Part shown: one piece after another, positions 7,383 to 12,284 of the stretch
How the letters are laid out: each line of letters starts with the position of its first letter
Numbering within the stretch: the first letter of the stretch is position 1
DNA from: a virus
DNA: 22,081 nt
Strand: one strand, 5' to 3'
IMG/VR virus record: IMGVR_UViG_3300043137_000545
Span: 1 to 22,081 of that record
Program-made: the position numbers and the translations under genes
The notes under the pieces: generated by a model
Told to the model about the DNA's origin: nothing
Database searches by the model: none
The model's input: only the letters and a program-made list of their open reading frames with translations

Positions 7383-8089
7383 AGTTAGAAGATAAAATTA
7401 CTATTGTTGTTCCGTGCAAAAATGAAGAAAATTACATAGCACATTTGTTAATGCACTTGCGTCAGCAATCTATAGGTAAAACTAGAATTATAATTGCAGA
7501 TTGTTCTACAGACAAAACACGAGAAGTTATTGAGATAATGAAAGGTGAATTGAATGTTGAAATAATTGAAGGTGGACCAGTTTCAATCGCTAAAAATAAT
7601 GGTGCTAAGTTAGTAAAGACACCTTATATTTTATTCATTGATAGTGATGTAAGGTTTTTTTCTAATACAGTGATTGCTGATACAGTCGATGAATTAGAAA
7701 CTAACAATTTAGATTTAATTGGATTATATGCAAAATGCTATGATGATTCAATTAGAGCAAAGATTGGTTTTGGATTATTCAACATCATTAATGATATAAT
7801 GAAGCGTAAGGTACCATTTGCTGTTGGTGCTTATATGTTAACACGTAGAGATAAGTTTGAAGAGTTTGGTGGTTTCCCTGCTAAATATGAAACTAGTGAA
7901 GACTTTTTCTTATCTAAAAAATATGATCCAAAAAAGTTTAAATTAGTTAAACATTACTTTGGCCAAGATAGCAGAAGATTCCAAAAGATGGGATACTTTG
8001 GCATGGCTTGGTATCTTATTAAGAATTTTATAAATAGAAATAATGAACAATATTGGAATAAATTAGATTATTCTAAATATTGGAATTAG
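7379..8089 (+). CDS. Family 2 glycosyltransferase
   Basis: A 236-residue GT-A fold enzyme that would transfer a sugar from a nucleotide donor. Visible features: the N-terminal strand and binding loop ITIVVPCKNEENYI, the metal-binding DSD in ILFIDSDVRF, the acceptor-side GGFPAKYETSEDFFLS with its ED pair, and a C-terminal basic, aromatic helix (FGMAWYLIKNFINR) that may associate with the membrane. It is coupled by ATGA to the 43-residue gene and lies beside an LpxH-like gene, suggesting joint modification of host surface glycolipid. Modification of phage DNA or protein is an alternative. Confidence 0.88.
   Translation: MKLEDKITIVVPCKNEENYIAHLLMHLRQQSIGKTRIIIADCSTDKTREVIEIMKGELNVEIIEGGPVSIAKNNGAKLVKTPYILFIDSDVRFFSNTVIADTVDELETNNLDLIGLYAKCYDDSIRAKIGFGLFNIINDIMKRKVPFAVGAYMLTRRDKFEEFGGFPAKYETSEDFFLSKKYDPKKFKLVKHYFGQDSRRFQKMGYFGMAWYLIKNFINRNNEQYWNKLDYSKYWN
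8029..8036 (+). promoter_or_regulatory. Candidate T4-type late promoter for the tmRNA locus
   Basis: An exact TATAAATA within the last 60 bases of the glycosyltransferase gene, about 65 bases ahead of the tmRNA acceptor piece. Expected start near 8043. It lies in coding sequence, so chance cannot be excluded, but no other promoter is visible for the tmRNA. Confidence 0.45.
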
Positions 8090-8097
8090 AATTGTTG

Positions 8098-8155
8098 TAA
8101 TCCCTTCAAAATGAAGGACTTCTGGACGCGGGTTCGACTCCCGCCTCGTCCACCA
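8098..8155 (+). ncRNA. ssrA: tmRNA acceptor piece (3' half)
   Basis: Contains a 6-bp hairpin CCTTCA-AAA-TGAAGG (8103-8117), the P2 strand CTTCTG, a perfect T arm GCGGG-TTCGACT-CCCGC (8128-8144), the acceptor strand CTCGTCC, discriminator A and encoded CCA (8153-8155). The third pair of the acceptor stem is G-U, the identity element for alanyl-tRNA synthetase. Its left end is uncertain by about ten bases. Confidence 0.92.
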
Positions 8156-8168
8156 TAAGGAGATTAGT

Positions 8169-8243
8169 ATGAATGACAACTTAAATAGTTTGGCAATAGG
8201 TGTTGTTATTGTGCTTATAGTATTCGCGCTAGTACTCTTATGA
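8169..8243 (+). CDS. 24-residue membrane microprotein inside the tmRNA spacer
   Basis: A short gene in the spacer between the two tmRNA pieces. It has an ideal Shine-Dalgarno AAGGAG (8157-8162), two bases after the acceptor CCA and six before the ATG. The product begins MNDNLNSLAIG and ends in a run of 14 hydrophobic residues (VVIVLIVFALVLL from residue 12), a single membrane helix. The TGA (8241-8243) is one base ahead of the tmRNA 5' end at 8245. I do not recognise the protein. Translation and tmRNA maturation would use the same transcript and should interfere with or regulate one another; this is inference. Confidence 0.75.
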   Translation: MNDNLNSLAIGVVIVLIVFALVLL

Positions 8244-8244
8244 T

Positions 8245-8428
8245 GGGCGAGCCATGGTTTCGACAGAGGTAGATAGTAGAGACGGCAACACGGTAGATGA
8301 CGACCGTTAATCGCATAAATAAAGTAAACGCAAACGACTCACAGTTCGCATTAGCAGCCTAAACGCCGCTTAGGGTTTCGCAGGTTCCTCGTAACAGAAT
8401 ACCTGCATCTTAACACAAGGAATGTTAC
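8245..8428 (+). ncRNA. ssrA: tmRNA coding piece (5' half) with tag frame
   Basis: Begins with the acceptor strand GGGCGAG and a D-like loop with GGTTTCGAC. Codons at 8330-8359 encode the tag ANDSQFALAA, ended by TAA 8360-8362; with the alanine carried by tmRNA the tag would be AANDSQFALAA. The stop codon sits in a hairpin CCTAA/TTAGG (8358-8374). The 3' part folds as an H-type pseudoknot: GCAGGT (8380-8385) with ACCTGC (8401-8406), and loop GTAACA (8391-8396) with TGTTAC (8423-8428). Upstream, ACGGT/ACCGT (8290-8307) may belong to pseudoknot 1. Confidence 0.93.
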
Positions 8429-8429
8429 A

Positions 8430-8663
8430 ATGAAGAATTTAATGTTAGTAGTAGCTTTAGCGTTTGGTATGACTAGTGTTTATGCTGTTGATCCAAAACC
8501 AGCGCCAAAACTAGATTGCACAAAACCAGCGAATAAGAGTAAAGGACCATGTCAAAAAGCACCTGAGTCTAAAACTAAAGTAGAGATTAAGAAACCTGAG
8601 AAACAAAAAGCTGCACCTGCTGCAACACAAAAGAAAGCTGCTGAGAACAACGCTCAAAAATAA
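8430..8663 (+). CDS. Small secreted Lys/Pro-rich protein, 77 residues
   Basis: A Sec-type signal peptide is clear: MKNLMLVVALAFGMTSVYA, with cleavage likely after VYA. The mature part is short, very basic and rich in Lys, Pro and Ala (PKPAPKLDCTKPANKS, KPEKQKAAPAATQKKAA) and has two cysteines that could pair. It would be periplasmic and probably disordered, perhaps binding peptidoglycan or lipopolysaccharide. Its start is two bases after the tmRNA pseudoknot, and its AAGGA (8417-8421) lies inside that pseudoknot's connecting loop, so translation may depend on how the RNA folds or is processed. A terminator follows. Confidence 0.8.
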   Translation: MKNLMLVVALAFGMTSVYAVDPKPAPKLDCTKPANKSKGPCQKAPESKTKVEIKKPEKQKAAPAATQKKAAENNAQK

Positions 8664-10310: not shown

Positions 10311-12284
10311 TCAATCCTTTCTGTTATATTGTGAATCTACTATTTCTTGGTGCAGTCTGTCTGTGCCACCAAACATTCGTAAATTAGCGCGATTGTCAAT
10401 GTTTTTCTGATTGTCATAAACAGTGAATGGTTTATAAAATTGTTGTTGTACTATCATTTGTTTACTATACGTATCAAAACCAGGAGTAAATCCCATTGCT
10501 TGAATAACAACATTTTGTACTTGCTTTTGTGCTTCTAAGTCTGAAGCTTTACCCATTTCACCAGCAAGATTTTTACCTTTTTCTACGGCTTCGGCTTTTG
10601 CTGCGGCTTCTCGCTTTGCTTGCAATTCTTGTCTTGCTGTAGGAGCTGCTGGTTTATCAGATGACGCTTGAGCATTATTAGAATTCGATGGCGAATTACC
10701 GCCTCCAGCGCTTTTCGGAGTATCATCTCGTTTATCCTCTTGTTTATCTTTTCCACCACCTTTTGGTTCATTCTGTGCCATTTGTTGTGGTGGAGGTGGA
10801 GGTGCTGTTAATTGAACTGCCGCAGCAGGTTGATTTCCACTTGTTGATGTTGGACGTGGTGCTGCAATTACTTTATCAATGTTACTATCACCTGTAGTGG
10901 ATACTCCTGTTGAAACAGTACCATCACTACTAACAGTTGTACTTGCTGTATTAGTTGCTACTACAGTGTTTGTTGGATCATTTGCCTTTGTTGCAGCAGT
11001 ATTTGATAACGATGCATTCACAGCAGTTGAATCGATATTAGCCACTAGATACTTGATAGCGTACGCTGTAGCATAACCTTCACACTTATTACTATACAAT
11101 GAATCGATTATACATTGTGAATTTAAATATGCTTGCTCGTATCCTGGACAATCAGTTGCAAATAATGCATTTAAAGAACATTGTTGCGTTTTATAAGCAG
11201 CAGCGTATCCACTGCATGTAGTGGAATATAAAGGATTTGCAGAACATTGCTGATCTAAATAAGCTTGAGCATATCCTGGACAGTCAGTCGCATACAATGT
11301 ATTGATTGAACATTGTTGATCGTGATAAGCTTGTTGATAACCTCTACATGTTGTAGAGTAAAGAGGATTGATTGAGCATTGCTGTTCTAAATATGCAGCT
11401 TGATATCCAGGACATGACTGACTGTATAACGGATTAGTAGAACACTGTTGAGTAAAATACGCAGTTTGATATCCAGGACAAGATGGATCAAACAACGCAT
11501 TGACTGTACATTGTTGAACTGTGTAAGCAGCTTGATATCCAGGACATGTCGGTGATGACATAGGATTGATGATACACATATCCACTGCACCTGTTCCATT
11601 AGGTGCTTGCCAACTAAAAATACTTGGTCCACCAGGTGTAATGTTTATGCCTTGTCCGTGATATGCTTGAAAATATTCACCATTCGCTAAGTTACCTGCC
11701 ATTCCAGATGTAACAGCATTATATTCAACTCTAGCACCAGCGATACGTGTATCAACCAAACCGGCAGAATTTATTTTAATTTCGAAGCTATTACCACCAT
11801 TGCTACTACAACATTGACTTACACCATACCAACCGTAAGTCATACTGTTGCCTTCTCTTAGGTAATATTGGTTTTGACCGTTCCAAGAATACAAATCTGT
11901 GTGCATACCATAGATCGTATAATTATAACGTGGATCAGTTGTCGTTCTTAAATCAACACCTGAACAACATGCTCCACCCAAACCAGATTGTGCTGGATCT
12001 TGGAATGTAACCAATCCATTCGTCATTGCCCACGAATTATTAAACACTCTACCAAAGAATGGAAAATCAAAACCTAATGGTACATTATTATATGAGTCAT
12101 CGTGAGTTGTGATATTAACTGCGTTTGGATTTGTACGAATGTCTTGTAAAGGTAAAGCATTAGCACCCGTGCCAACTGTTATCGATAATCCTGGCGGAGC
12201 ACCAGGAATTTGAATCGTAACAAGTTCAGCGCGTGTAGATACAGCGCTTACTAATAATAGTAAGGACACCAGCAAATGCTTCAT
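10311..12284 (-). CDS. Secreted protein with NIDO-like region and eight Cys repeats
   Basis: A 657-residue exported protein. Residues 1-20 are a signal peptide ending TRA. Residues about 40-230 form a beta-rich region (GFDFPFFGRVFNNSWAMTNG, LYSWNGQNQYYLREG) resembling NIDO-type extracellular domains, with two CC pairs. Residues 235-410 are eight exact-length 22-residue repeats with consensus CSxNPLYxxxCPGYxxAY. A Thr/Ser/Ala-rich linker follows, then a low-complexity Pro/Lys/Asp part and a basic helical C-terminus. Two cysteines per repeat suggest disulfide-stapled units in an oxidising compartment. Likely a periplasmic or surface adhesin-like protein; whether it acts in the virion or in the infected cell is unknown. 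Confidence 0.8.
   Translation of the reverse strand: MKHLLVSLLLLVSAVSTRAELVTIQIPGAPPGLSITVGTGANALPLQDIRTNPNAVNITTHDDSYNNVPLGFDFPFFGRVFNNSWAMTNGLVTFQDPAQSGLGGACCSGVDLRTTTDPRYNYTIYGMHTDLYSWNGQNQYYLREGNSMTYGWYGVSQCCSSNGGNSFEIKINSAGLVDTRIAGARVEYNAVTSGMAGNLANGEYFQAYHGQGINITPGGPSIFSWQAPNGTGAVDMCIINPMSSPTCPGYQAAYTVQQCTVNALFDPSCPGYQTAYFTQQCSTNPLYSQSCPGYQAAYLEQQCSINPLYSTTCRGYQQAYHDQQCSINTLYATDCPGYAQAYLDQQCSANPLYSTTCSGYAAAYKTQQCSLNALFATDCPGYEQAYLNSQCIIDSLYSNKCEGYATAYAIKYLVANIDSTAVNASLSNTAATKANDPTNTVVATNTASTTVSSDGTVSTGVSTTGDSNIDKVIAAPRPTSTSGNQPAAAVQLTAPPPPPQQMAQNEPKGGGKDKQEDKRDDTPKSAGGGNSPSNSNNAQASSDKPAAPTARQELQAKREAAAKAEAVEKGKNLAGEMGKASDLEAQKQVQNVVIQAMGFTPGFDTYSKQMIVQQQFYKPFTVYDNQKNIDNRANLRMFGGTDRLHQEIVDSQYNRKD
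11055..11582 (-). repeat. Eight tandem 66-bp coding repeats
   Basis: Eight direct repeats of 66 bp (528 bp exactly), each coding 22 residues with two conserved Cys. Neighbouring units differ in several codons, so the array is old or selected, not a recent slippage product. The outer repeats (first DMC, last SQC-CEGY) are the most divergent. Confidence 0.9.

Follow-up and report, generated by a model that had tools for sequence, protein, structure and literature searches.

A single transcript can combine an RNA function with a small protein, as in the dual-function RNA SgrS/SgrT, whose open reading frame (ORF) is part of the functional RNA; at the locus described here, the ORF instead lies in the part that would be removed, and it is exchangeable. 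Permuted tmRNAs are known in phages, for example in Melnitz (PMC9004378), and permuted pre-tmRNA is cleaved by tRNA processing enzymes (PMC11915505). With regard to the content of their intervening sequences, a database paper notes only one tRNA-Ala and one repetitive element (PMC11915505). We found no description of a protein gene in this position in the literature covered, which did not include the older work on two-piece tmRNAs. ORFs in removed RNA are known from T4, where ORFs within introns have a ribosome-binding site (RBS) masked by an RNA stem (PMC2988022). In Coxiella, inserts in the 23S rRNA carry an S23p ORF that loses its Shine-Dalgarno sequence (SD) upon excision, is decaying, and is apparently untranslated (PMC4990558).

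The window analyzed here is a whole 22-kb IMG/VR record (22,081 nt) with a permuted tmRNA gene, all of whose features given below lie on the plus strand. Because the gene is permuted, the acceptor piece, i.e., the 3' part of the tRNA-like domain (8093..8155), is found upstream of the coding piece (8245..8413), which was delimited by Rfam, ARAGORN, and the sequence itself. The Rfam model tmRNA_permuted (RF04321) matched positions 8093-8362 over the full model with 140.2 bits, and beta_tmRNA matched with 158 bits. The acceptor piece ends with an encoded CCA (8153-8155), and the sequence places the mature 5' end of the tmRNA at G8245. GGGCGAG (8245-8251) pairs with CTCGTCC (8145-8151) to form an acceptor stem of 7 bp, including a G3-U70 wobble; seven acceptor pairs are also present in every tmRNA locus listed. 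The tag reading frame (8330-8362) encodes ANDSQFALAA and thus ends with ALAA and a stop. The order of acceptor piece, intervening sequence, and coding piece is that of a permuted tmRNA, and as host RNA the molecule is ordinary, having the same pieces and tag frame as those already described (RF04321/RF01850; Melnitz). What differs from the permuted tmRNAs reported so far is that its spacer carries a protein gene.

The window also encodes an endolysin and a protein matching a single-strand DNA-binding protein PHROG (E=8e-114), which we take to be T4 gp32-like. A pattern search found TATAAATA, identical to the core of the T4 late promoter, at 8029..8036, where it is a weak candidate promoter for the tmRNA and its cargo. 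The motif occurs five times in the window, compared with 1.95 expected. It lies 60-220 nt upstream of 4 out of 52 coding loci (0.28 expected), and we rejected it as a general rule since, although enriched, it is present in so few of them. Directly after the tmRNA, positions 8430-8663 encode a small Lys-rich protein with a signal-peptide-like start, and the minus strand at 10311-12284 encodes a 657-aa protein with several Cys-rich QQC-x-NxLY-x-CPGY-like repeats; neither had a PHROG match.

The spacer between the encoded CCA and the mature 5' end is 89 nt long (8156..8244), and homologous slots were found at about 200 IMG/VR loci. An earlier sequence-only reading of the window had proposed that a membrane-microprotein gene is nested in this spacer. 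The SD, AAGGAG (8157..8162), follows the CCA after one base, not two as that reading had it. The remaining geometry was as it had described: an ATG (8169-8171) six bases past the SD opens a frame of 24 codons (8169..8243) whose stop, TGA (8241-8243), is separated by a single T (8244) from the mature 5' end. The product, MNDNLNSLAIGVVIVLIVFALVLL, has one hydrophobic helix.

Such a frame could have arisen by chance in a non-coding processing dumbbell. In shuffled spacers of close relatives, a spacer-spanning ATG frame appeared in 5-10% of the cases, and in short spacers generally in roughly 5-15%; therefore, the window spacer alone proves little. For a blind scan, IMG/VR was searched for the acceptor T-arm regardless of spacer content, which returned 71 permuted tmRNAs; of their distinct spacers, the 50 with a length of 45 nt or more were tested. 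A spanning frame was defined as an ATG frame that starts near the CCA and ends near or beyond the mature 5' end. Spanning frames were found in 24 out of the 50 spacers, compared with 5.2 expected, among loci retrieved by patterns that favor one kind of T-arm and acceptor stem. A few of the 24 (L015, L056, L088) resemble non-coding dumbbells, as the chance explanation would have it. In a second set, comprised of loci matching the 3' junction, 47 out of 74 distinct spacers were coding; this set was not blind, since it included loci from an SD-selected scan. An SD-like motif was present in 18 out of 21 coding spacers and in 2 out of 26 non-coding ones.

The substitutions point the same way. The membrane microprotein was found at about 36 loci with 23 distinct sequences, in which the frame is conserved, with a dN/dS of about 0.30-0.36 (pS 0.56 vs pN 0.295). 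In the nine family members with an 89-nt spacer, the true frame had 31 amino acid changes and no stops, while 500 permutations of the alignment columns gave 47 +/- 3.3 changes, none of them as low as 31. Comparison of the spacer across related phages, the check that had been named beforehand, thus bears out the nested gene: the relatives keep both frame and SD, and their changes are biased toward synonymous ones. Together with thioredoxin and IscU domains inside other spacers (see below), the counts and the synonymous bias refute chance reading frames for the spacer set as a whole, and we consider this explanation hardly credible.

The slot holds very different cargoes. Greedy clustering gave about 40 families and BLAST gave 39 clusters, a few of them non-coding; the counts depend on the clustering and include doubtful short frames (L253, L015, L056, L088). 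Among the cargoes are several families of single-helix membrane proteins, a small Cys-rich protein, a thioredoxin, a full-length IscU, and unknown soluble proteins. Others were labeled acetyltransferase-like by eye, a label for which Pfam gave no support. The thioredoxin domain (PF00085) in the spacer ORFs of L124, L156, and L170 scored above the cut-off (E=4.1e-21) and has WCGPC as its CxxC motif, while the spacer ORF of L193 matched NifU_N/IscU (PF01592) with E=3.3e-55 over profile positions 1-124 of 127. Close relatives of both are free-standing genes in other phages, from which the spacer versions differ with a pS of about 0.5-0.8 and a pN of about 0.06-0.13. The C-termini are altered, KVSL and KKISL in the spacer versions as against KVK and KKH... 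in the free-standing ones, because the 3' strand of a stem closing the spacer dictates the last codons. No second IscU copy was found elsewhere in its 90-kb record, leaving the spacer copy as the only one found. Three spacers (L148, L171, L174) hold two tandem genes; in L174, one is related to an L171 cargo and the other to the cargo that L076 carries alone. As to the cargo of the window itself, our best guess is a small protein of the inner membrane that acts while the phage infects its host, e.g., in superinfection exclusion, counter-defence, or membrane modulation.

Several tmRNAs and spacers in the set were unusual in other respects. L305:1428-1947 is a degenerate permuted tmRNA (83 bits) that was missed by ARAGORN, with altered T- and D-loops and a thioredoxin gene in its spacer; it could be decaying or specialized. 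The non-coding spacers of L088, L107, and L268 contain T-arm-like sequences, e.g., GGTTCGAGTCC, GGGTTCGATTCCC, and GGGTTTGAGTCC. The tags of the L049, L078, and L088 tmRNAs are unusually long at 28 aa, e.g., ATADTFDFSAMSFTGNSVSGKSKVALAA.

Comparison between phages showed how cargoes are replaced. L049 and L078 share 7.5 kb almost identically: the stretches compared, 3 kb upstream and 3.4 kb downstream of the spacer, contain one mismatch and none, respectively. Their spacers are nevertheless unrelated, with a Cys-rich protein encoded in one and a membrane protein in the other (the L078 cargo being a single sighting). The same pattern, with lower identity, was seen in the pairs L096/L169 and L030/L144. 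In the opposite case, the window and L073 have a cargo in common, while their DNA aligns only in the tmRNA halves. Since cargoes are swapped within shared flanks, and a shared cargo can be accompanied by alignment of the tmRNA halves only, these halves are likely the recombination arms, and the cargoes were probably exchanged by recombination within them. The sharp borders of the cassette exchange would also suit selfish genes that move themselves into the slot in the manner of homing endonucleases. However, a Pfam scan of 20 cargo proteins found no endonuclease, integrase, or recombinase, and no group I intron was found in the window at the Rfam gathering threshold; we consider self-mobilization highly improbable.

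Cargo exchange also bears on the role that the sequence-only reading had assigned to the microprotein, namely that it could be dedicated to the tmRNA as its partner or regulator, being produced from precursor RNA only while that RNA is unprocessed, or controlling tmRNA levels through its translation. The SD within the processing stem, the stop abutting the cleavage site, and the purifying selection on the microprotein family are all in line with such a role. However, the same position holds about 40 unrelated cargoes or a non-coding dumbbell, and the cargo is swapped between near-identical phages; therefore, the microprotein is not a required tmRNA partner. Intact tmRNA halves around a frameless spacer, the case that the reading had named as its own refutation, do exist; they exclude an obligatory pair and leave the gene itself standing. 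A dedicated microprotein is thus improbable.

Instead, we consider it likely that phages use the spacer of permuted tmRNAs as a slot in which small protein genes are carried as cargo, among them that of the window microprotein, and that the slot works as follows. Lying between the two halves, the cargo is transcribed within the pre-tmRNA. A ribosome would load either co-transcriptionally, as long as the 3' strand of the closing stem and the coding piece do not yet exist, or once the stem breathes. Closure of the stem would then mask the SD, and the precursor would pass to processing, in which RNase P would make the 5' end of the coding piece and other enzymes would mature the 3' CCA end. With the stop located before the cut, the cleaved RNA would still be a complete message. 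Between phages, cargoes would be swapped by recombination in the tmRNA halves.

The closing stem is central to this cargo-slot model. In the minimum free energy (MFE) fold of the precursor segment, its 5' strand (8154..8168) continues the acceptor stem and includes the SD, and its 3' strand (8228..8242) consists of the last ORF codons and most of the stop. The stem is predicted to extend the acceptor stem, with the CCA end facing a conserved U-G/A-A-U that precedes the mature 5' end. When 5' strands were combined with the 3' strands of other spacers, pairing was poorer than in the native combination, for coding as well as non-coding spacers (P=5e-5, the limit of the test). The stems of coding spacers are weaker, with a median of -8.2 kcal/mol compared with -14.4 kcal/mol for non-coding spacers (P=2e-6). 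The predicted probability that the SD is unpaired had a mean of 0.05 (median 0.003) in 43 precursors and rose to 0.54 when the 3' strand was omitted. Pairing is moderate in some members: the predicted value was 0.18 in the window, which is looser than the median, and 0.66 in L052. By prediction, then, the RBS is masked by RNA structure.

The placement of the stop codon follows the same stem. In 24 of the 40 families, the stop is the terminal TGA; in 13 it falls shortly upstream of the 3' strand, and the remaining three continue into the tmRNA. Among the 27 families that read through the stem, 24 use the frame of the terminal TGA, compared with nine expected (binomial P about 3e-9). In 37 out of 40 families, the stop lies upstream of the position where RNase P is predicted to cut, so that these families keep their stop codon if it is RNase P that cuts at the mature 5' end. 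The families that lack a spacer stop and read into the tmRNA are that of L009/L187/L190/L209, the L004 family, and the L080 family; if cleaved, their RNA would be a message lacking a stop codon, which is what tmRNA naturally acts on.

Because the SD lies in the closing stem, where nearly all of it is predicted to be paired in most precursors, translation and processing could plausibly interfere with each other, and translation may plausibly compete with tmRNA maturation. The alternative is that real genes sit in the spacer because insertion there is harmless, the overlap of stem and SD being a matter of economy. It shares the cargo-slot part of our explanation and differs only in denying a coupling of translation to maturation. 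The diversity and interchangeability of the cargoes, no single one of which is needed, agree with it, as does the fact that the tmRNA evidently fares no worse with a non-coding spacer. Yet coding spacers keep the pairing of their own strands, have weaker stems than non-coding spacers, and in one family after another incorporate the SD into the stem, as though a single helix had to satisfy two demands. We regard harmless insertion as a real but lesser possibility. More tentatively, and rather speculatively, ribosomes on the spacer ORF might keep the stem from closing and occlude the RNase P site; translation would then gate a switch by which a pre-tmRNA becomes either message or tmRNA.

Next, we considered the range of the cargo slot. 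All coding spacers were in metagenomic contigs. T4-type capsid protein Gp23 was found in nine out of ten tested records above 150 kb with coding spacers; our impression from the phage type is that the sources of these T4-like phages are largely freshwater. The host is probably a betaproteobacterium, judged from the tmRNA type only. A blastn search with the tmRNA region of the window returned only records of XacN1 and an Alcaligenes phage, and both isolates inspected, XacN1 and QDWS595, have non-coding spacers. No match to the 24-aa microprotein was found in isolated phages by tblastn. One coding-spacer pattern, searched in 84,980 bacterial and archaeal genomes, gave six stretches (mostly Caldiserica), none of which came out as a permuted tmRNA. 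In Alcaligenes phage QDWS595 (L222), a predicted tRNA (1796-1872) with a UUA (stop) anticodon lies directly after the permuted tmRNA, and in XacN1 (L223) two CUA tRNAs lie nearby. On the sequence evidence, we conclude that a cargo slot nested in a structural-RNA precursor is real and has so far been seen only in phages.

The slot resembles the T4 ORFs of I-TevI, I-TevII, I-TevIII, and mobE/segB (PMC2988022) in belonging to T4-like phages, in placing an ORF within removed RNA (there, introns), and in having a stem-masked RBS. However, the T4 cases are self-splicing introns with religated exons, or free-standing genes, and their cargo is a homing endonuclease throughout, whereas here a tmRNA spacer would be cleaved without ligation, many unrelated cargoes are not endonucleases, and the SD is in the closing stem itself. 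The S23p inserts in the 23S rRNA of Coxiella and Leptospira (PMC4990558) likewise hold an ORF within an excised, unligated insert of a structural RNA with a terminal stem. They are excised by RNase III and carry one protein family, whereas here there are dozens of families, the SD is kept, and selection is purifying; moreover, the host RNA is a tmRNA according to Rfam, and Pfam found no S23 domain among the cargoes scanned. The combination of host RNA, predicted cleavage without splicing, variety of cargo, and a merged SD and processing stem has no counterpart in either system and in this respect is new. On a stricter view, the slot might be regarded as a kind of nested ORF in removed RNA segments.

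Thus, the intervening sequence of permuted tmRNAs, which the literature covered here treats only as a removable part, serves phages as a site for storing and exchanging small genes. Their translation signals are merged into an RNA-processing helix, a case in which one helix would serve both translation initiation and the maturation of a stable RNA. This accounts for small phage genes that have been overlooked, and more of them can be found by reading between the tmRNA halves. If the translation-gated switch were true, a phage would tune its ribosome-rescue capacity to the supply of free ribosomes, whatever the cargo.
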